Positions 40,250 through 52,131 of a stretch of 64,000 bases of DNA are shown one piece after another (within the stretch, counting starts at the first letter, position 1; every line of letters starts with the position of its first letter). The position numbers and the translations under genes were made by a program. The DNA comes from Mediterraneibacter massiliensis (GTDB taxonomy: Bacteria > Bacillota > Clostridia > Lachnospirales > Lachnospiraceae). The stretch lies in the NCBI RefSeq assembly GCF_001487105.1, contig NZ_LN913001.1, positions 1,854,372-1,918,371 of the forward strand, written 5' to 3'. Under the pieces are notes generated by a model. That model worked only from the letters and a program-made list of their open reading frames with translations. It did no database searches and was not told the origin of the DNA.

Positions 40250-41431
40250 CTATTTTTTGTCTAAAAATATTCCGGACGCATCCAATACTCCAATCATTTC
40301 CTGTATCACCGGTATATCCACCACCAACGCCATGCGGACATATCTTTCCCCACCTTTTCCAAATGCGCTTCCCGGTGTTACGATCACTCCTGTTTTTTCC
40401 ATCAGATCCATACAAAACGAAACCGACGTCTCGTAATTTTCGGGAATCTTCGCCCACACAAACATCGTTCCCTGGCTGTCCGGCACATCCCATCCAATAC
40501 TGCGCAGCCCTCCGCACAATATCTGGTTCCGTTCTTTATACTTTTGTCTCTGTTCTTCAATATAGGTGTCTGGTCCTGTAAGAGCCGCTATGGCAGCATA
40601 TTGTACCGGGAGGAAAATGCCATAATCGATCTGCGAACGAAAAATCTTCAGTTTCTGGACTATTTCTTTATTCCCCACTAGAAAGGAAATCCGCGCACCA
40701 GTCAGATTGTAAGACTTAGACAGGGAATAAAATTCTGCCCCCACCTCTTTAGCTCCCTCAAAAGAAAGGAAGGATCTGCCCTTTTCCCTGGAAAAGATAA
40801 TATCAGAATAGGCATTATCGTGAAGGATGACAATATCATGCCTCTTTGCAAATGCGATCAGTTCCGGGTAAAATGTATCCGGAGCACAGACACAGACCGG
40901 GTTGAGCGGATAGGATACGATCATATATTTCGCCTGTTCCAGCACATCTTCCGGTATTTCAGAAAGTTGGGGCAGATACCCATTCTTTTCCTCAATCGGA
41001 TACGTCTGTACTCTCGCGCCTGCCATGATCCCACTCATCTCAAATAAAGGATATCCCGGATCCGGCACAAGGATCATATCTCCCGGATTGCAGAGCACCA
41101 TCCCGATATGCGCCATACCTTCCTGCGTACCATATACGGATGTGATTTCTTCTTTCTCAAGTTCTACACCAAAACGCTTCTTATACCGGTACTGCACTGC
41201 ATTCAGAAGCTCCGGCAGATCTGAAAGTGCATATTTATAATTCTGCGGATCTTCACAGGCCTTTCTCATAGCTTCCATAACATGGGGAGCCGGCGCAAAA
41301 TCCGGCGTTCCCACTGAAAGATTAAACACCTTCCTCCCCTGCTTTTCCAGTGCCTCTTTCTTCTCGTTCAACACTGCAAAAATCCCTGTCTCAAACTGGT
41401 TCATCTTATTTGAAAACTCTATTTTTTTCAT
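40250..41431 (-). CDS. PLP-dependent class I/II aminotransferase
   Basis: A 393-residue fold-type I aminotransferase. NLSVGTPDFAPAPHV at the start, PDPGYPLF, VSYPLNPVCVCAPD (the conserved Asn), HDNAYSDIIF and the PLP lysine in SLSKSYNLTGARISF are all present. It is nearest in pattern to LL-diaminopimelate/alanine-type aminotransferases; substrate cannot be fixed. The usual NPTG element is changed to NPVC. GAGGAG precedes the start. A promoter at 41522-41550 separates it from pyrD. Confidence 0.88.
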   Translation of the reverse strand: MKKIEFSNKMNQFETGIFAVLNEKKEALEKQGRKVFNLSVGTPDFAPAPHVMEAMRKACEDPQNYKYALSDLPELLNAVQYRYKKRFGVELEKEEITSVYGTQEGMAHIGMVLCNPGDMILVPDPGYPLFEMSGIMAGARVQTYPIEEKNGYLPQLSEIPEDVLEQAKYMIVSYPLNPVCVCAPDTFYPELIAFAKRHDIVILHDNAYSDIIFSREKGRSFLSFEGAKEVGAEFYSLSKSYNLTGARISFLVGNKEIVQKLKIFRSQIDYGIFLPVQYAAIAALTGPDTYIEEQRQKYKERNQILCGGLRSIGWDVPDSQGTMFVWAKIPENYETSVSFCMDLMEKTGVIVTPGSAFGKGGERYVRMALVVDIPVIQEMIGVLDASGIFLDKK

Positions 41432-41573: not shown

Positions 41574-42476
41574 CTACAAAATCCCCCGTATCTCATCCAA
41601 GGAATCCAGATGATTCTCTTCCATATATTTTTCCATGCCCTCGATAATATCCAGGGAAATATCTGGCTTCATGAAAGTCGCAGTGCCTACCTGTATCACC
41701 TGCGCACCTGCCATGATAAATTCAATCGCGTCCTCCCAGGTAGTGATCCCACCAAGTCCCATGACCGGTATCTTTACCGCCTTGCACACCTGGTGCACCA
41801 TCCGCAGAGCGATCGGCTTGATAGCCGGGCCGGACAGACCAGCATATCCATTGTTAAATACCATTTTTTTTCTTTTTATGTCCACTGCCATCGCAAGGAA
41901 TGTATTGACAAGTGATACACCATCCACCCCCTCCTCTTCACACATCTTGGCGAGAGAAACAATATCCTCTGCATTCGGAGACAACTTTACGACCAGTTTA
42001 TGTCTGCTGATCCTGCGCACTTCCCGCACCAGTTCCCTGGCAGCTTCTGTCTTGACCCCAAAATTCATACCGCCCTCTTTTACGTTTGGACAAGAAATAT
42101 TTAGCTCCAGAATATCCAGATCTACATCATTTAGCCTCTCTGCCCCTCGAAAATAGTCTTCTTTGAAGTGTCCTCCCATGTTGACGATATTAACGACGTC
42201 TTTTTCATTGACCCAATCCAGATCCTTTTCGATAAACGCCTCTATCCCCGGATTTTCAAGTCCTACACTATTCATGATGCCGCTGGGTGTTTCCCATATA
42301 CGGATACCGTCATTTCCCCCATGAGGATGCGCGATAAGTCCCTTGGACGATAATCCACCCAACTTCTCTATATCAAATTGTTCCGCAAGTTCTCTTCCGA
42401 ATCCGCATGTGCCGGAAGCAAGGACCACCGGATTTTTAAAAGCAATTCCTGCAAATTCTGTCTTTAATCTACTCAT
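41574..42476 (-). CDS. pyrD: Dihydroorotate dehydrogenase B, catalytic subunit
   Basis: FMN enzyme interconverting dihydroorotate and orotate, 300 residues, class 1[16 protein letters not shown], the catalytic-loop Cys in [25 protein letters not shown] and [19 protein letters not shown] (FMN phosphate) are visible. It works with PyrK, which passes electrons from or to NAD(H). The start directly follows the pyrK stop. In this cluster the enzyme may run towards dihydroorotate (see findings). Last gene of the four-gene unit. Confidence 0.95.
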
Positions 42477-43187
42477 TTATGCAAACACCTCGCTTCCTAA
42501 AAATACCGGTCCGTCTTTGCAGGCCGTCTTATTTCCGCTTTTTGTCTTACAGGTACAGACCTTGCACATACCGATCCCACATGCCATACGATTTTCCATA
42601 GAAACATACAGAGGAGCGCTTGCCCCCACTTTCACACATTTTTCATATAAAACTTTCATCATGATCTCCGGACCGCAGGTCAGAATCACATCATATTTCA
42701 GAGGATCCACAGAATCTGTAATAAAGCCGCCCACATCGATCGTCACATGATCTGCGACATTCTGATAGTCTGTTTCTAACACCGGCTGTCCGCTGAATCC
42801 CAGGTAAATATCGATCTGGCTGCATGTGCCTGCTTCTCTGTATTTCTTTGCCGTATAGTAAAATGGCGCGATTCCGACGCCGCCCCCTACCATGGCGATT
42901 TTCCCCTTTACATCTTCCGGAAATCCATTGCCATAAGGTCCGTTGAGCGTAAGCATTTCTCCGGGTTCCAGACGGCTTATCAATTCTGTTCCTTTTCCTA
43001 CTTTCTTATACAAAAAGGATACTTTTTCTCCATCTGCATCAAATACACTGATCGGTCTTGAAAGTACCGGATATTCTTCCCATCCTCTCAGCATATAAAA
43101 TTGTCCGGCCTTTACCTGATTCTTTTCCTCCACTTCTATCAGATAAAAATCATCCGACAGTTTTTCATTTGCCAGTATCTTTCCCAT
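42477..43187 (-). CDS. pyrK: Dihydroorotate dehydrogenase B, electron transfer subunit
   Basis: Flavin and iron-sulfur subunit linking PyrD to NAD(H), 236 residues. FAD-binding RPISVFD, the NAD-binding GGGVGIAPFYYTAK, and the C-terminal 2Fe-2S cysteines in ENRMACGIGMCKVCTCKTKS are present. Because it couples to NAD, the pair can run in either direction, unlike quinone-linked PyrD. ATG 43187 follows AAGGAGG; an upstream in-frame start at 43220 lacks one. Confidence 0.95.
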   Translation of the reverse strand: MGKILANEKLSDDFYLIEVEEKNQVKAGQFYMLRGWEEYPVLSRPISVFDADGEKVSFLYKKVGKGTELISRLEPGEMLTLNGPYGNGFPEDVKGKIAMVGGGVGIAPFYYTAKKYREAGTCSQIDIYLGFSGQPVLETDYQNVADHVTIDVGGFITDSVDPLKYDVILTCGPEIMMKVLYEKCVKVGASAPLYVSMENRMACGIGMCKVCTCKTKSGNKTACKDGPVFLGSEVFA

Positions 43188-43203
43188 ACTTAGCCTCCTT
43201 GTT

Positions 43204-44475
43204 TTATTCTTTATCCTCATATACGACTCTGCCGCTGCAGATCGTATATTTCACTTTACCGTACAGTTCTTCTCCAATAAAAGGTGAATTATTGGATCTG
43301 GAATGGAATTTTTCCACCTTCCATTTCTCAAATTCATCAAAGATAACAAGATCCGCCGGTGCCCCCTCTGCTATATATCCGCTGTCAAGTCCATACAGTT
43401 CTGCCGGATTCAGCGTCATTTTTTTCAGGAAATATTCCATAGTCAGGCTTCCTGTACGGACCAGATTTGTTATGCCAAGAGCCAAGGCTGTCTCCAATCC
43501 GATCATCCCACTCGGCGCCTTCGTGATCTCTCTGTCTTTTTCTTCTGCGGAATGAGGCGCATGGTCTGTTGCGATGATCTGTATCGTCCCATCCTTTAAT
43601 CCCTCTATGATCCCATAACGGTCATCTTCTGTACGCAAAGGTGGATTCACTTTTGCGAGAGTTTTCTTCTCAAGTGCGTCCTTTTCTGTCAATGAAAAAT
43701 GCTGGGGCGTCGCCTCTGCCCACACATCTGCACCAAGTTTCTGTGCCAGCCTGATATATTCCACTGCAATTTTCGAACTCACATGCTGAATACTGACCCT
43801 AGCCCCCGTTTCCAGTGCCAACGTGCAGTCTCTTGCCACCATAAGCTGCTCGGAAAGCGCCATGGCTCCTCCAATCCCAAGAGACTCAGAGACGGCTCCT
43901 TTATTGATCCCGGCCTGGAATACAAAGTCAGGATCTTCCTCATGGAGACTGATTGCAAGACCTTCTTCTTTCGCCCTTTTTAAAGCTTCGTACATAAGGC
44001 GGCTGTCTTTGATCGGAATCCCGTCGTCACTTAAACCTACCGCTTTTGCTTTCTTTAATTCGGCAAAATCTGTCAGTTCTTTTCCCTTCATTCCTTTTGT
44101 CACTGCTGCTACAGAAAGCACATGGATCCCCGTCTTCTTTCCTTTCTCCAACACATAGGAAAGCGTGTCCGCATTATCCACCGGCGGCTTTGTGTTCGCC
44201 ATGCACACTACAGTTGTAAACCCGCCGGCTGCTGCGGCCTTCGCACCGCTTTCAATATCTTCTTTATAAGTCAGTCCAGGATCACGGAAATGCACATGCA
44301 CATCGATCAGACCCGGCGCCACGATTTTCCCTTCTGCCTCGATAATACGCTCATACTCGTTGCTGCGTTTATATTTTCCGATCCCCGCAATCTTTCCTTC
44401 TTCTATCAAAATATCCAGTGTTTCATCTGTTCCACTTTTAGGGTCGATCACCCTGCCGTTTTTAATTAAAATCAC
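43204..44475 (-). CDS. pyrC: Dihydroorotase (class I)
   Basis: Zinc amidohydrolase interconverting N-carbamoyl-L-aspartate and dihydroorotate; 423 residues. Metal ligands are in LIDVHVHFRDPG, with MANTKPPVDN for substrate and the catalytic Asp in IIATDHAPHS. A relaxed relation to hydantoinases is possible, but the Asn/Arg substrate motifs fit dihydroorotase. The start overlaps the stop of the M20 hydrolase gene by four bases, so both are coupled. It is followed by pyrK and pyrD. Confidence 0.94.
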   Translation of the reverse strand: MILIKNGRVIDPKSGTDETLDILIEEGKIAGIGKYKRSNEYERIIEAEGKIVAPGLIDVHVHFRDPGLTYKEDIESGAKAAAAGGFTTVVCMANTKPPVDNADTLSYVLEKGKKTGIHVLSVAAVTKGMKGKELTDFAELKKAKAVGLSDDGIPIKDSRLMYEALKRAKEEGLAISLHEEDPDFVFQAGINKGAVSESLGIGGAMALSEQLMVARDCTLALETGARVSIQHVSSKIAVEYIRLAQKLGADVWAEATPQHFSLTEKDALEKKTLAKVNPPLRTEDDRYGIIEGLKDGTIQIIATDHAPHSAEEKDREITKAPSGMIGLETALALGITNLVRTGSLTMEYFLKKMTLNPAELYGLDSGYIAEGAPADLVIFDEFEKWKVEKFHSRSNNSPFIGEELYGKVKYTICSGRVVYEDKE

Positions 44476-45686
44476 TGATTCTCCCTCCTAATATGTTCAT
44501 ATATTACCCGCGCACCGTTACAGATATCTTCAATTGTGGCAAATTCCATTTTATTATGGCTGATTCCTTTGTCACATGGTATAAAAACCATTGCTGTATC
44601 ACAGACAGACGCAAATGACATCGCGTCGTGACCGGCTCCACTGACCATGACTCGATTCGAAATCTGAAGTTCACGAGCCGCTTTTTCCAGTTTAAGTGCA
44701 AGATCCTTTGTCATCTCTATCGGCGGAATACTGCTTAACTTCTCTTCGATCAACTGTACTTTACGTTTTCTACATATAGCCCTTGCAGAGTCTAACACGC
44801 CTCTTTCAATCCTGTCAAGACTTGCCGGATCGATTCCTCTTATGTCAATCCCAATCTCCACTTCTCCGGGGATCACATTCATTGCGTTTGGTCTGTTATA
44901 CAATACCCCAACGGTTGCTACAGACTGATACATAGATTCTCTTTGCCCGATCCGTTCCACTTCCAGTATCACTTCCGCAGCTGCGCACAATGCATCATTT
45001 CGCATCATCATCGGCGTTGTTCCGGAATGTTCTGCCATTCCATGGAAATACAGACTATACCGGATAGGACCTGCTATTGTACTGACAATCCCAAGTTGCG
45101 TATGACACTCCTTTAATACCTTTCCCTGTTCAATGTGTAATTCTAAATATTGTCTGACACCCTCAATCTTTTTCGGTCGGATATGCAGTCCTCTTTCTGC
45201 AAAAATATCCCCAAGAAGCTTTCCATCTTTTGATAAAAGTCCTTCAATATCCTGCTTGTAGGCTTCTTTTGTGATCAGTCCGCTTCCGATCGTACAACAT
45301 CCGAAATTACTGGATTCCTCACAGCGAAAAGCCCCCACCCGGATAGGAACTTTTAACTCGTCTTCCTTCGCCCAGCGGAGCACCATCATTCCGGCGATCA
45401 CGCCTGCCACCCCGTCATATCTGCCACCCTCTACGACAGAATCTAGATGTGAGCCGATCAGATAGTAATTTTCTTCCATGCTGTTGCAGATATATGTATT
45501 TCCCACTTCGTCTGTTACATCCATATAGCCCATCTGTTTTCCATCTGCGATCAAAGTCTCATGCATTCTGTCCTCGGTCTGCGTATAGCCGAGGCGGGTA
45601 ACACCTCCGTCCGCGGTAGCGCCTATATTATAGAAGCTTTTAAAAAGTTCCTCGCAATACTGTATATCTCTACGGCTGTGTATCAT
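44472..45686 (-). CDS. M20-family N-carbamoyl-amino-acid hydrolase (candidate ureidosuccinase)
   Basis: A 404-residue zinc-dependent amidase of the hydantoinase/carbamoylase family (also includes allantoate amidohydrolase). Metal and substrate motifs: IGSHLDSVVEGGRYDGVAGV, FRCEESSNFGCCTIGS, LELHIEQGKVL, AEHSGTTPM and VSGAGHDAMSFA. Such enzymes release CO2 and ammonia from N-carbamoyl groups. Next to dihydroorotase and DHODB, the natural substrate would be N-carbamoyl-L-aspartate, giving aspartate. That assignment is inferred from context; allantoate or another ureide is possible. It is the first gene of the unit; AGGAGGAG precedes the start. Confidence 0.85.
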   Translation of the reverse strand: MIHSRRDIQYCEELFKSFYNIGATADGGVTRLGYTQTEDRMHETLIADGKQMGYMDVTDEVGNTYICNSMEENYYLIGSHLDSVVEGGRYDGVAGVIAGMMVLRWAKEDELKVPIRVGAFRCEESSNFGCCTIGSGLITKEAYKQDIEGLLSKDGKLLGDIFAERGLHIRPKKIEGVRQYLELHIEQGKVLKECHTQLGIVSTIAGPIRYSLYFHGMAEHSGTTPMMMRNDALCAAAEVILEVERIGQRESMYQSVATVGVLYNRPNAMNVIPGEVEIGIDIRGIDPASLDRIERGVLDSARAICRKRKVQLIEEKLSSIPPIEMTKDLALKLEKAARELQISNRVMVSGAGHDAMSFASVCDTAMVFIPCDKGISHNKMEFATIEDICNGARVIYEHIRRENQ

Positions 45687-45833: not shown

Positions 45834-45876
45834 AGAAAAAAAGAACGGCCTTTTTTGTTTATTTAGACAAAAAGGC
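45834..45876 (-). terminator. Terminator after the PucR gene
   Basis: GGCCTTTTTGT pairs with ACAAAAAAGGCC around a short loop, followed on the minus strand by GTTC and seven T. It starts about 25 bases after the PucR stop and separates the regulator pair from the M20-pyr unit. Confidence 0.88.
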
Positions 45877-45897: not shown

Positions 45898-47076
45898 TTA
45901 TCTGCCGCAGAGCTTTTTTTCCAATACCATGAAATACAATTTAAAATTATCTGCCTGACATCTCACATCCAGCCCTGTGAGTTCTTTTATCTTATGCAAG
46001 CGATATTTGATCGTATTCTTATGTGTATGCATACGACTCGCTGTCTCGTCCATATTGCCATCACACTCAAAATAAACGATCAACGTATCTACTAACTCTT
46101 GATTTTTCAATTTCTCCCAGACAGGTAAAAATAAACTCTCTGCTCTATTCTGCAGCATCTTGCGCAGGCTGCTATATAATTCCAGATCAGAAAATGTGTG
46201 TATCTTCGCTGTCTTATCTACGATCCGCCCCAACTCAAGCGCCTGCACAGCTTCTTCATAAGAACACCGGATACCCGCTGCTTTCATGTTCGCTGTTCCG
46301 ATTCCCACCCGATAGCCTCCGTGTATAGCCAGATCATCTAGTGTCACCTGCATTTCTGTCAAAATAAACGGAAGATATCGTTTCAACGTACTTTTCTGTC
46401 TGCTGTACAGTATAAAAAGGATTCCTTTCTCCAACGCAAAGTTACTGCTGTACAATCCTTCTGACAAGCTTTCCGCAAACGCAGAAAGTCTGTCTGCCGC
46501 AAATTGTACCATCCGCCGCCTGCCACCTTCATACATCTCCTGTGTATCTGCTTTGATCAGAAGTGCCTGGAAACAATCCTTTTCAACATCTACATTCAGA
46601 AGCCGTCCTTCTTCCTCAAATATATCCACATTTTCCGCAGGATGAAAAATAATGTCTGCCAAATATTTTCCCAGCATCTTCCTTCTATTGTTTTCTGTCA
46701 TGATTACATTCATAACATCCATGATAATGTCGATATATGTCATTTCATAAGGGATCTGAAGCAGTGGAAAATGATTTTTATCTGCGATTGCGATCATTTT
46801 ATCTGAAATGCGGCGTGCATATTTTCCGGTTTTAATTGCCAGACATGCGCTGCGTGTTTCCAACAGATCATAGAGCAGCCGACACTGCTTTTCCTCATCA
46901 TCCCCGATAGAATAGAGGCTGGTTATTAAAAAGTCATCGCCTTTCAGCCATTGGATCACGTCCGGTACCTCCATTACAGTCACGGTTCCCACATTGACAT
47001 CCAGACATTCCGTGTTTGTAACAAGCTCCAGGTTTCTAAGTGACTTAAACTCTAATAATTCTCTAAGTTTTGCCAT
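45898..47076 (-). CDS. PucR/CdaR-family transcriptional regulator
   Basis: A 392-residue regulator. The N-terminal part (about 1-120) is a PucR N-terminal ligand-type domain (TVMEVPDVIQWLKGDDFLIT), the middle is GGDEF-like, and the C-terminal HTH_30 domain reads FECDGNMDETASRMHTHKNT then IKYRLHKIKELTGLDV. PucR-type proteins generally control purine or ureide catabolism. It follows the regulator-phosphatase fusion by 19 bases and precedes the M20-pyr unit, so it is the best candidate regulator of that unit. Confidence 0.9.
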   Translation of the reverse strand: MAKLRELLEFKSLRNLELVTNTECLDVNVGTVTVMEVPDVIQWLKGDDFLITSLYSIGDDEEKQCRLLYDLLETRSACLAIKTGKYARRISDKMIAIADKNHFPLLQIPYEMTYIDIIMDVMNVIMTENNRRKMLGKYLADIIFHPAENVDIFEEEGRLLNVDVEKDCFQALLIKADTQEMYEGGRRRMVQFAADRLSAFAESLSEGLYSSNFALEKGILFILYSRQKSTLKRYLPFILTEMQVTLDDLAIHGGYRVGIGTANMKAAGIRCSYEEAVQALELGRIVDKTAKIHTFSDLELYSSLRKMLQNRAESLFLPVWEKLKNQELVDTLIVYFECDGNMDETASRMHTHKNTIKYRLHKIKELTGLDVRCQADNFKLYFMVLEKKLCGR

Positions 47077-47095: not shown

Positions 47096-48610
47096 TTACT
47101 CTAATATATCTTTTAACTGCTTTAATCTGCTGATCCTGTACGTACTTTTTTCTCCCTGCACCTGTTCTTTTTCCCCTTCTTTAATAAACCAGCATGTATC
47201 GATCCCATATTCCAGCCCGCCTTTTATATCAGAGCTGTATGAATCTCCGATGATCAATGCCTTGTCCTTATCAAATTCCGGAATATGTTTTTCCACATAT
47301 GTAAAAAATTCTTTAGACGGTTTCTGCGCCCCCACTTCCTCTGAAACAAAGATCTGCTCAAAATACTTGTCAAGCCCCGCAGCTTTCAGACGTTTCTTCT
47401 GCGTCTTTGCCACTCCGTTACTGATGATAAATAAGCGGTACCTTCCCTGCAGCCACTGGCAGATTTCTTCTGCATCTTCGATCATCTGCGTACCTTCATT
47501 TAAACAGGAACGGTATTTTGTCTCCCACTCCTTTCCATCGATCTCTTGTCCAAATTCCTGCATTGTCTTCGCAAATCTCGTATTTAGAATCTCTTCCTTT
47601 TCTATCTTTCCCTGCTCGTATTCCTTCCACAGCCTATCGTTGATCTTTTTATATACCGGAAGATAAGAGAGTGCATCTTCATACCCATAACTCTTTAATA
47701 CATGCGCAAAGGCTTCTTTTTCATTTGCCTGAAAATCCAGAAGTGTGTCATCAACATCCAACAGGAGGCAAGTATACCGATTCGATGCTTTCATCTTATC
47801 TATTTTTTTATTTGTATCCAACACTTTCTTCGCGATCATCAGCAAATGAAGTTTAAAACTGTCTTCTGTATCATGTACATCCAACCCCGTCGATTTTTTT
47901 ACATTCGCAAGATATTCTCTCACCAGATCAGAGGGAATATCCAGCACCTTCGCCGTCATATCTATATCTTCTTTGCACTTATAGTACTTCGCAAGTACAC
48001 GGATCTCTATGTCTCCCAGTTGGCTAAAGACAATATCTGTAATCTGCTTGCCATAACTAGTCACCATTGCATTGATAGAACTATAAATTTCCATTCCCAT
48101 ATAGTCTAAGAAAACCCTCTCTTTTTTGAAGATCTCGCCTGCCTTGACCGCCTTCATGGCATACGTATATGTACGTTTGATCCCAGATATCCCTTTTTCA
48201 GGAAGCCCTATCCCTACTCGTACTTTTTTATCGACTCCCAATGTCTCTAAACGAGCTGCTGCTTCTTTTTTAAACGCCGGAAGAATTTCGGACAGTTCGT
48301 CCTTTGTATGTCCTACTAAAAAAGTCGCTACCCCATTGTCCACATAAAACATCTGATTCGCAGCGGCGGCTCTATTGACAGCCGGCAGTGCACACATCCC
48401 TGTCAAATGCTCTTTTAATTTTTCTTTTTCTTCAAATGTTCCTTGTTCTGTAGAAGGATAGAGAAACACCACTCCCAAAAACATATCCCGGCTAACATCA
48501 AATCCCAGCTTTTTCCCCAGATGTGCTACGAGCTTTTCATCTTCATAGAAATAATTTACCACATCATTAAAATACGTTGAAAATCCTATTGTCTCCATAC
48601 TGCTGTACAT
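47096..48610 (-). CDS. PucR-like regulator fused to a YjjG/YfnB-type HAD phosphatase
   Basis: One uninterrupted 504-codon frame with two unrelated parts. Residues 1-270 resemble the central and C-terminal domains of PucR/CdaR regulators; the helix-turn-helix lies near YYKCKEDIDMTAKVLDIPSD and ends TGLDVHDTEDSFKLHLLMIA, parallel to the neighbouring PucR. Residues 277-504 are a HAD subfamily IA hydrolase: nucleophile motif LLLDVDDTLLDFQANE (Asp 285), FIISNGVAKTQKKRL, and IGDSYSSDIKGG. The nearest known relatives are YfnB and YjjG, the latter a pyrimidine 5'-nucleotidase. No ribosome binding site precedes the internal ATG at the junction, so I see a true fusion. GGAGGT precedes 48610. Confidence 0.85.
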   Translation of the reverse strand: MYSSMETIGFSTYFNDVVNYFYEDEKLVAHLGKKLGFDVSRDMFLGVVFLYPSTEQGTFEEKEKLKEHLTGMCALPAVNRAAAANQMFYVDNGVATFLVGHTKDELSEILPAFKKEAAARLETLGVDKKVRVGIGLPEKGISGIKRTYTYAMKAVKAGEIFKKERVFLDYMGMEIYSSINAMVTSYGKQITDIVFSQLGDIEIRVLAKYYKCKEDIDMTAKVLDIPSDLVREYLANVKKSTGLDVHDTEDSFKLHLLMIAKKVLDTNKKIDKMKASNRYTCLLLDVDDTLLDFQANEKEAFAHVLKSYGYEDALSYLPVYKKINDRLWKEYEQGKIEKEEILNTRFAKTMQEFGQEIDGKEWETKYRSCLNEGTQMIEDAEEICQWLQGRYRLFIISNGVAKTQKKRLKAAGLDKYFEQIFVSEEVGAQKPSKEFFTYVEKHIPEFDKDKALIIGDSYSSDIKGGLEYGIDTCWFIKEGEKEQVQGEKSTYRISRLKQLKDILE

Positions 48611-48683
48611 CTCATTACCTCCAATTGACAGACTATTTTATTTTATTCTATATATTTTTCTCTCTTTTTTAGATGAAAAACAT

Positions 48684-48712
48684 ATTTTACACTATCATTT
48701 TGATCTTGTCAA
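48684..48712 (-). promoter_or_regulatory. Sigma-A promoter of the regulator operon
   Basis: TTGACA (48707-48712), 17 bases, TAAAAT (48684-48689) on the minus strand. Immediately upstream of the -35 box are three 9-base repeats that are A-rich on this strand and may act as an UP element. Confidence 0.82.
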
Positions 48713-48783: not shown

Positions 48784-48837
48784 ACTATCTTTGTTAAAAA
48801 CGACAAAATTTCTATCGTTTTTTTGTCTTCCTGACAA

Positions 48838-48955: not shown

Positions 48956-50308
48956 ATGCAAAATCAAAAATCGATACATTCTCTGGCACGAAGAATTGTC
49001 ATTGCTCTCGTGCTTGGTATTATCGCGGGCTTTTTCTTTATATGGCTAAGAGAAACATTAAATGCTACCGGCAATGCAAATATCTGGAATATGATCAATA
49101 GTATCTTCTTCCAAGATATATCTGCTGAAGGAGCCTCTAATGCTATTGGTCTGTTCTATATAATCGGACAGATGTTCATCCGCGCCTTGCAGCTTGTTAT
49201 CATCCCCATGATCTTTACTTCTATTGCTCTTGCTATCGGCACAATCTCAGATACGCGAACACTGGGCCGCATCTCTTTTAAAACAATCGCCTGGTTCTTG
49301 CTATGCTATTTCTTTGCGCTGCTCCTAGCAGGCACAGTCGGTATGTTTCTTTATCGCAGCGGTCTTTTCAGCGCCAATATTACCGGACTTTCTGTTTCCA
49401 AAGGTTCTGTCGGTTCCAACCCTCTGCTTGTTATTTTAAACGCTGTTCCCCTTAATATCACAGCTGTATTCAGTGACAACACAGCTGTACTCGCTGTTGT
49501 ATTTCTAGCTGTCGCAGTAGGACTGTGCATGAATGTACTGGGAAAAGAAAAAACAAATACCTTAAGCAAGTTATTTCAAGAAATAAATGATATAGTGGTT
49601 GTTTTCTTAAATTTCGTAGTAACAAAAATGGGACCGTTTGCTATTTTCGCACTTTTTTCGAGAACATTTGCCACATATGGGATCCACTATCTGCGTCCGG
49701 CATTGATCTATGTAGTGACGACCGTTATCCTGCTTCTTACATACCTTTTTGCCGGTTATTCCCTGCTCATACGTTTTGGGACTCAATTAAATCCGATCCC
49801 TTTTATCAAAAAAATTTCCAAGGTCGCAATGTTCGGTTTTTCTACTTCTTCAAGCGCCGCTACTCTTCCTCTTAATTTAAAAACAACGACCACAGAGTTG
49901 GGAGTAGATGAAAAAATTGCTTCCTTTGTCCTCCCTCTTGGTATGACGATCAACATGAACGGTACTGCCATCATGCAGGTGATAGCGACATTGTTTATTG
50001 CCGGATGTTCCGGGTCGCATGTTACAGTTCCTATACTGATCATGATTTCAGTAATGGCAATGTTATGTTCAGCCGGAACACCGGCTGCGCCTGGAGCCGG
50101 AGCAATCGTTCTTTTTACTATTCTGTCTGGTGTTGGCTTTACAAACGACGCGGCGCTTTTGGCATATAGCCTGATACTGGCGATCAATCGTCCTATCGAA
50201 ATGCTCGTGACTTCTTTAAACACAGTAGGCGATTCCTGTACCTGTATCTATGTCGCCAAAACAGAAGGACTCTTGAACAAAGACATCTATAACAGTAAAG
50301 TAAAATAA
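48956..50308 (+). CDS. Dicarboxylate/amino acid:cation symporter (DAACS family)
   Basis: A 450-residue membrane protein of the DctA/GltP family. Hallmarks: the serine-rich loop (FGFSTSSSAATLPLN), GMTINMNGTAIMQVIATLFI and the C-terminal RPIEMLVTSLNTVGDS. Usual substrates are aspartate, glutamate and C4-dicarboxylates, with Na+ or H+; DctA of Salmonella is also known to take up orotate. It is divergent from the regulator operon. Orotate or aspartate are the obvious candidates here, but this is inference. AGAAGGAGG precedes the start. Confidence 0.9.
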   Translation: MQNQKSIHSLARRIVIALVLGIIAGFFFIWLRETLNATGNANIWNMINSIFFQDISAEGASNAIGLFYIIGQMFIRALQLVIIPMIFTSIALAIGTISDTRTLGRISFKTIAWFLLCYFFALLLAGTVGMFLYRSGLFSANITGLSVSKGSVGSNPLLVILNAVPLNITAVFSDNTAVLAVVFLAVAVGLCMNVLGKEKTNTLSKLFQEINDIVVVFLNFVVTKMGPFAIFALFSRTFATYGIHYLRPALIYVVTTVILLLTYLFAGYSLLIRFGTQLNPIPFIKKISKVAMFGFSTSSSAATLPLNLKTTTTELGVDEKIASFVLPLGMTINMNGTAIMQVIATLFIAGCSGSHVTVPILIMISVMAMLCSAGTPAAPGAGAIVLFTILSGVGFTNDAALLAYSLILAINRPIEMLVTSLNTVGDSCTCIYVAKTEGLLNKDIYNSKVK

Positions 50309-51027: not shown

Positions 51028-52131
51028 TTATGCTATTTGCCTTAATCCTTCTGCCAGTATATTTTTTGCGGCATTGATATCTCTATCTTGTTTTGTTCCA
51101 CAATTCGGACATATCCATTCCCTTACCGATAAATCTTTTGTATCTGTATTTTGATATCCACAGGCAAAACACAACTGGCTACTGGCATAAAATGTGTCTA
51201 TTTTGACATATTCCCTGCCATTCCATTTTGACTTATATTCCAGTTGCCTTGTAAGCTCATACCATGACACATCACTGATTGATTTTGCTAAATGATGATT
51301 TTTTACCATGTTTTTTATCTGCAGATTTTCCGAAACTATTACTTGGTTTTCGCTGACAATTTCGTGTGAAATCTTATGTAGATAATCTTTTCTGGTATTT
51401 GTTATCTTCTCATGGCATATTGCGATTTCTTTTTTCTTCTTCTCGTAATTTCTGCTGCCTTTTTCCTTGTGTGCCAGTTGCCTTTGCAGTCTCGACAGCT
51501 TCCTCTCATTCTTTTTTATTATCTTTGGATTTTCGTACCTTATCCCATCCGATGTGATACATAAATCCTTAATTCCTAAATCCAATCCTATATTTTGATT
51601 TCTGTGTGGCAATTTTTCATGCTCTGTTTCTACCAGTATTGACACATAGCATTTCCCACTTGGAACCTGACTGACCGTGGCTGATTTTATTTTGCCATGG
51701 AATTCTCTGTGCAGTTTTGCCTTTACTTCTTTTAACTTTGGCAGCTTTATTTTTCCATTCTCTAAATCTACAGCTATATTTCCATTCGTAAAATTCGTTG
51801 TATAGGATTTATGGTTATCGTGTTTACTCTTAAACTTTGGATAGCCCGTATGTTCTTTGAAAAACTTCTGATAAGCTGAATCCATATTATAGATTGCATT
51901 CGTCAGGGCAAACTTATCCACTTCTTTTAACCATTCATATGTCTTCTTTAATTCTCTGTTACAGTAATTGTTGCAGCCTGTTTTACTGATGGTTTTTTTC
52001 TCTTTCTCGTAAGCTTCTTTTCGATATGCAAGCGTCTGGTTATATACAAAACGGCAACAGCCAAATGTTTTAGCTATCTGCATTTTCTACTCATTGTTTG
52101 GATATACCCTGTATTTATATGCTTTTAACAT
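51028..52131 (-). pseudogene. tnpB: tnpB (RNA-guided nuclease of IS605 family) with early amber stop
   Basis: From the natural start at 52131 the frame reads 14 codons (MLKAYKYRVYPNNE) and then TAG at 52087-52089, where relatives carry Gln. After the stop the frame is intact for 351 codons. It keeps the RuvC residues (IGLDLGIKDL, VIVSENLQIKNM, DRDINAAKNI) and the zinc site (CFACGY, CPNCGT). An ATG two codons after the stop could restart translation but no ribosome binding site is seen. The core is therefore catalytically complete but missing its first strand unless the amber is suppressed. Confidence 0.88.

Follow-up and report, generated by a model that had tools for sequence, protein, structure and literature searches.

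The fusion gene and its orotate/dihydroorotate neighbourhood

The window analysed here, i.e., the whole stretch of 64 kb, carries at 48610–47096 on the minus strand one open frame of 504 codons without a break, in which a module of GGDEF-like and helix-turn-helix (HTH) domains (residues ~1–272) is followed by a HAD nucleotidase (residues 278–504). Such a frame, joining a regulator-type half to a HAD domain, had been proposed in the initial annotation, with coordinates and domain borders that prove right within a few residues. The fusion gene and the features around it are listed below.

47096..48610, minus strand: fusion gene, 504 aa, regulator-derived module and YjjG/YfnB-type HAD nucleotidase (uninterrupted frame, Pfam and NCBIfam matches)
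48143..48538, minus strand: GGDEF-like domain of the non-catalytic type, aa 25–156 (PF17853; fold match to the Rv2242 and BAD_0249 regulators)
47837..48013, minus strand: HTH segment, aa 200–258, with diverged recognition helix IPSDLVREYLANVK (PF13556 below cut-off; motif absent; modelled helices)
47099..47779, minus strand: HAD phosphatase domain, aa 278–504, with D285, D287, S397, K430, D456 and D461 present (TIGR02254, motif positions, model)
48684..48712, minus strand: fusion-gene promoter TTGACA-N17-TAAAAT, then ATGTTTTTC (48683–48675; N4-[CT]TTTC is common to orthologous genes)
48790..48807, no strand: inverted repeat TTTGT-N8-ACAAA, putative PucR site, between fusion gene and symporter (also at L013 7801)
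48956..50308, plus strand: SDF-family (DctA/GltP-like) symporter, divergent from the fusion gene (PF00375, 297.6 bits)
45898..47076, minus strand: full-length PucR regulator (P0002) with PF07905, GGDEF_2 and HTH_30 containing HKNTIKYR (domain matches); likely operon regulator
45854..45871, no strand: second TTTGT-N8-ACAAA copy, upstream of the M20–dihydroorotase–PyrK–PyrD operon (repeat search)
44472..45686, minus strand: M20 hydantoinase/carbamoylase-family amidase (TIGR01879, 333 bits, cut-off 204)
43204..44475, minus strand: dihydroorotase (NF006839, 642 bits, cut-off 576)
42477..43220, minus strand: PyrK, dihydroorotate dehydrogenase electron-transfer subunit (NF000798)
41574..42476, minus strand: PyrD, class 1B type (NF005574, 390 bits, cut-off 269)
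40250..41431, minus strand: class I/II aminotransferase (PF00155; under every NCBIfam equivalog cut-off shown)

Downstream of the fusion gene the order is PucR, M20, dihydroorotase, PyrK, PyrD and aminotransferase, and the SDF symporter lies upstream and divergent. Dihydroorotase, PyrD, PyrK and the carbamoylase-family gene stand in one operon, each above at least one curated cut-off, in agreement with the suggestion that the fusion gene neighbours a pyrimidine-ring operon. The gene content of the operon is consistent with the interconversion of orotate and aspartate through dihydroorotate and N-carbamoyl-aspartate, and the M20 amidase is, from its neighbour genes, a probable N-carbamoyl-aspartate hydrolase. 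The symporter is a candidate for orotate or carbamoyl-aspartate uptake; symporters 67–68% identical to it are found inside the dihydroorotase–PyrKD operon in two other loci (L103 and L104), and DctA, of the same family, takes up orotate in E. coli (PMC6415869). The carbamoylase, the symporter and PucR point to breakdown. No second copy of the operon's dihydroorotase (PyrC) or PyrD (41574–44475) was found in the genome, however, and pyrBI is located far from the operon (L102 7385–8759; PyrI read by eye), so the operon genes may serve pyrimidine biosynthesis besides orotate use or breakdown. No specific report on genes for orotate degradation emerged from the open-access literature searched, and an Rfam search of the window between 40 and 52 kb returned no RNA. 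An OrfB_IS605/TnpB-type gene (PF01385, PF07282) lies near the cluster at 51028–52083.

The same 504-aa fusion, of equal length and 79% identical, is present in Faecalicatena orotica (NZ_QGDL01000002.1; L013 8001–9515), where it adjoins the same orotate genes. The two genes differ at 98, 51 and 285 first, second and third codon positions, respectively, a pattern that indicates purifying selection on both halves and on the junction. No Shine–Dalgarno sequence was found at the junction, and the sole internal ATG near it, codon 273, is replaced by an Ile codon in F. orotica; an internal start at this codon, yielding a free HAD protein, is therefore rejected. The initial annotation had allowed that homologues might always occur as two proteins with a ribosome binding site at the junction; they are instead fused in two species and separate in 11 genomes. 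The AlphaFold model of the whole fusion has a mean pLDDT of 81.8 with a dip at residues 272–276, and we read its low pTM of 0.47 as reflecting two domains whose relative placement is uncertain.

A complete nucleotidase domain behind a regulator-derived module

The C-terminal half is a complete HAD domain of the YjjG/YfnB type, as had been proposed. It matches NCBIfam TIGR02254 (YjjG_YfnB) over profile positions 2–223 of 223 with 226.9 bits, against an equivalog cut-off of 159.9, and Pfam HAD_2 at aa 283–474 with 77.7 bits (cut-off 23.8). All four HAD motifs tested (I–IV: DxDxT, S/T, K and GDSxxxD) are intact, i.e., DVDDT at 285, SNG at 397, QKP at 429 and GDSYSSD at 455, and occupy identical positions in the F. 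orotica protein. The nearest solved HAD structures are those of Bacillus subtilis YfnB (3ed5/3i76), on which the model of the HAD half superimposes with a TM score of 0.92 (normalised by YfnB length), at 45% identity across the alignment. The HAD half is thus probably an active pyrimidine nucleotidase, and destruction of a pyrimidine nucleotide by the fusion protein, as predicted from sequence, is well supported by the family; the E. coli enzyme YjjG takes UMP, dUMP, dTMP and non-canonical pyrimidines as substrates (PMC8475336). A defence-family reading of the fusion was considered; it produced only a weak GajB match, which was disregarded.

The closest solved folds to the N-terminal module are C-terminal fragments of two PucR-family regulators, Rv2242/MabR (9f80; Foldseek 1.7e-9, VIA Z 12.6 over 226 residues) and BAD_0249 (3onq; Z 12.5 over 230 residues), with a high rmsd showing that the GGDEF-like and HTH domains are placed differently relative to each other; a sequence search of solved structures with the module profile gave no significant match. 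The module has the same domain order as the C-terminal half of PucR, at 24–28% identity. Pfam GGDEF_2 (PF17853) is matched at aa 25–156, where the full protein scores 24.6 bits and the module by itself 26.2 (cut-off 24.5), and in 13/13 module orthologues (E up to 0.1). The HTH segment, by comparison, scores 19.9–23.1 bits against HTH_30 (PF13556; aa 204–258; 19.9 in the full protein), under the cut-off of 27, and the seven other HTH_30 matches of the same genome reach 56–75 bits. There is no domain ahead of residue 25, and the PucR sensor PF07905, present in the neighbouring PucR (P0002) at 101.9 bits, is missing from the module. Furthermore, the recognition motif H-x-N-T-x-x-Y-R is absent from all 13 module orthologues (the window protein and 12 aligned to it); it is kept in every PucR orthologue examined, those of the same operons included, and in most other HTH_30 matches of the genome. 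The net charge of the recognition segment is −3 to +1 in module orthologues versus +1 to +5 in canonical relatives, and the segment is uncharged or acidic in most module orthologues.

The description of this half as a PucR-like regulator thus stands with respect to the GGDEF-like domain and the fold, but not for the PucR sensor, the HTH_30 score and the recognition motif. In our assessment the N-terminal half descends from a PucR-type regulator, yet it lacks these three family-defining characters, so we do not classify it among the PucR regulators. With the usual DNA-reading helix of the family lost, the module may act otherwise than as a conventional DNA-binding regulator. The HTH is, however, modelled as well-folded helices at 200–211, 216–223 and 227–241 with good confidence, is among the best-kept regions between the two fusions (90% identity), and matches Sigma70_r4 in 7/13 module orthologues; another mode of DNA binding is therefore quite possible.

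Distribution of the module and its upstream signals

Queried with the N-terminal half, 12 of 397 sampled Lachnospiraceae genomes contain a module orthologue, and the 11 besides F. orotica are 46–59% identical; in none of these 11 is the module fused, being a separate protein in each. Sampling 392 genomes of the order and 291 of the class yielded no orthologue outside Lachnospiraceae. An extra match from another family (G794) is an ordinary full-length PucR and not the module. No match to the N-terminal half was obtained in 24 congeners (full-protein query, E 1e-25), and none was found on plasmid or viral contigs. Hence the module is an accessory protein that few Lachnospiraceae carry, and two species are known to have the fusion. 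An apparent second fusion, a frame of 699–706 aa in G408, is an artefact, its additional N-terminal stretch being antisense over a PucR gene.

In 6/11 genomes (L029, L030, L032, L034, L036 and L037) the module gene is immediately preceded by a codirectional YjjG-type HAD gene, and several of these pairs come after dihydroorotase and M20 genes; their adjacency argues that both parts work in one context. Phylogenetically, the fusion HAD groups with that of L030 (support 95/94), within a wider clade that also holds the other module-linked HADs and those of L045 and L046, the latter two encoded after dihydroorotase without any module (read in L081/L082). Three module-bearing genomes gave no YjjG relative at E 1e-25, and six of the 11 gave no PucR orthologue (E 1e-30), so the module does not require either partner; gene arrangement indicates that module and HAD are functionally linked but not mutually dependent. 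The HAD gene usually stands ahead of the module gene, the reverse of the order in the fusion, which therefore arose by rearrangement; loss of a stop codon between two genes so arranged is an unlikely origin. Two neighbours were identified by eye: a gene resembling 4-alpha-glucanotransferase (MalQ) adjoins the module gene in six genomes (L029, L032, L033, L034, L035 and L037), and L036 2817–5984, downstream of the adjacent HAD–module pair, resembles the carbamoyl-phosphate synthase large subunit.

Module genes, fused or separate, share a near-consensus promoter, TTGACA-N17-TATAAT, with N4-[CT]TTTC at a constant distance behind it; apart from this, their upstream regions have diverged (42% mean column identity). 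Among 37 near-consensus promoters in 22 loci this start occurs in nine, all of module genes (window 48675–48712, minus strand; L029 9412; L031 12832; L032 9444; L033 9456; L034 4320, minus strand; L035 11461; L036 908; L037 10482, minus strand), and in 0/28 others; F. orotica (CTTTC after TAATAT) and L038 conform by eye, and L030 differs. UTP-sensitive reiterative initiation uses U-runs at the start in carAB (GUUUGC), pyrBI, codBA and upp (PMC6245113), and reiterative starts are common at nucleotide genes of a Gram-positive bacterium (PMC4448216). By analogy, the conserved start suggests that initiation at module-gene promoters could be sensitive to UTP/CTP.

The window contains exactly two copies of the inverted repeat TTTGT-N8-ACAAA, compared with 0.08 expected from shuffles. 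F. orotica has copies ahead of the fusion gene and immediately behind PucR (L013 7801 and 10744), and the repeat also adjoins M20 in other loci that carry a PucR orthologue, including one from a different family; outside the window and L013, sites were noted at L038 8185, L079 6573, L103 5718 and L104 7159. Altogether, PucR loci contain nine sites in 154 kb, whereas no site occurs in the 163 kb of module loci that have no PucR in the locus or in the 76 kb of remaining loci. These counts are descriptive because the repeat was noticed in these loci before counting, the window count against shuffles being the cleaner figure. The repeat thus tracks PucR, not the module; one PucR locus (L031) lacks it even with one mismatch allowed, and module genes without PucR showed no common inverted repeat in their upstream regions. 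PucR-family members are known to use inverted repeats of 17–24 bp as sites (PMC7652997). The adjacent full-length PucR probably reads TTTGT-N8-ACAAA, which is likely an orotate-PucR operator kept across two Clostridia families, and the fusion gene looks like one of its targets.

Role of the fusion protein and comparison with known systems

The reading to which we assign the highest probability, about 0.5, is a pyrimidine nucleotidase joined to a repurposed PucR/CdaR-derived module within a pyrimidine-tuned orotate regulon run by PucR, the module having a control or docking role. The gene product would be a YjjG/YfnB-type pyrimidine 5'-nucleotidase with a GGDEF-like/HTH module taken over from a PucR/CdaR-type regulator, and its gene would belong to the orotate/dihydroorotate regulon under the adjacent PucR, the probable binder of the inverted repeat. 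The HAD domain would most likely dephosphorylate pyrimidine nucleotides, e.g., UMP, OMP or dUMP, which may accumulate upon orotate uptake and passage through PyrE/PyrF. The module would most likely provide dimerisation and binding of a small molecule or partner, controlling or localising the enzyme, or could alternatively enter mixed complexes with PucR; a classical sequence-reading repressor or activator role appears less likely.

A true bifunctional DNA-binding regulator, i.e., a trigger enzyme in which the HTH with its altered helix binds an operator and the nucleotidase reads and removes a pyrimidine-nucleotide signal, is a possible though tentative alternative. The HTH fold is retained and well conserved between the two fusions, its closest solved relatives are the PucR-family regulators 9f80 and 3onq, Sigma70_r4 is matched in 7/13 orthologues, and the GGDEF-like and HTH part of MabR binds DNA by itself (PMC11617747); however, the family recognition motif is lost, the segment is uncharged or acidic in most orthologues, the sole conserved inverted repeat follows PucR rather than the module, and module genes lacking PucR have no shared repeat upstream. 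We regard as doubtful a one-protein feedback device, in which the nucleotidase would read and remove a pyrimidine nucleotide, the HTH with its non-canonical helix would alter orotate-regulon transcription, and UTP/CTP would tune the gene itself via the conserved N4-YTTTC start.

Partnership with PucR, by which mixed dimers formed through the GGDEF-like/HTH halves would lower or tune PucR activity, is consistent with the shared domain order and 24–28% identity and, in both fusion species, with the neighbouring position of the two genes and their common candidate operator, but is unlikely: 6/11 module genomes have no PucR orthologue, and it therefore cannot be the general role of the module. That the join is neutral or accidental, confined to one lineage and adding nothing to halves that work separately, would explain why it is seen in two species only and relatives have separate genes; we consider this very improbable, given that the fusion is in frame, 79% identical and equal in length, junction included, and that the separate genes neighbour each other, as expected for cooperating parts. 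Sequencing or assembly error merging two genes, named in the initial annotation as a way in which the fusion might prove unreal, is rejected with near certainty, because the same fusion occurs in the independent genome of another species, F. orotica, and because the reversed gene order of relatives makes a lost stop codon insufficient. The case makes testable the function of a C-terminal GGDEF-like/HTH module after loss of its recognition helix, the way in which orotate-using gut bacteria prevent build-up of pyrimidine nucleotides, and the site read by the orotate PucR.

To our knowledge, few regulators are fused to an enzyme that consumes their likely signal. The initial annotation knew of no described regulator of this build, and we likewise came across no account of a HAD nucleotidase linked to a PucR/CdaR-type module in the open-access papers searched. 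Compared with the YjjG/YfnB nucleotidases (TIGR02254; YfnB 3ed5/3i76, E. coli YjjG and pneumococcal PynA), the fusion shares the complete domain and all HAD motifs, but these named members are stand-alone enzymes, whereas the enzyme here follows a regulator-derived module of 272 residues; moreover, the HAD clade of the fusion is, unlike the named enzymes, linked to dihydroorotase genes. With the PucR/CdaR family (PF07905/PF17853/PF13556; MabR Rv2242 9f80, BAD_0249 3onq, and B. subtilis PucR, PutR and AdeR) it has in common a GGDEF-like domain followed by an HTH, but it differs by the missing PucR sensor, the HTH score below cut-off, the lost motif and the HAD domain appended C-terminally.

CARF-HAD phosphatase effectors of type III CRISPR systems likewise combine a ligand-binding or regulatory domain with a HAD nucleotide phosphatase, and YjjG is named among the characterised HAD phosphatases in the same report (PMC12715507); the likeness is one of analogy only, and these effectors differ from the fusion in their unrelated sensor, transmembrane helices and defence context. 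A close counterpart is the set of orotate genes of Faecalicatena (Clostridium) orotica, where PyrD/PyrK, dihydroorotase, M20, PucR and the SDF symporter stand in the same order together with the fusion, the difference being an additional hydantoinase-like gene between PucR and M20 (L013 10873–12270) that is absent from this position in the window.
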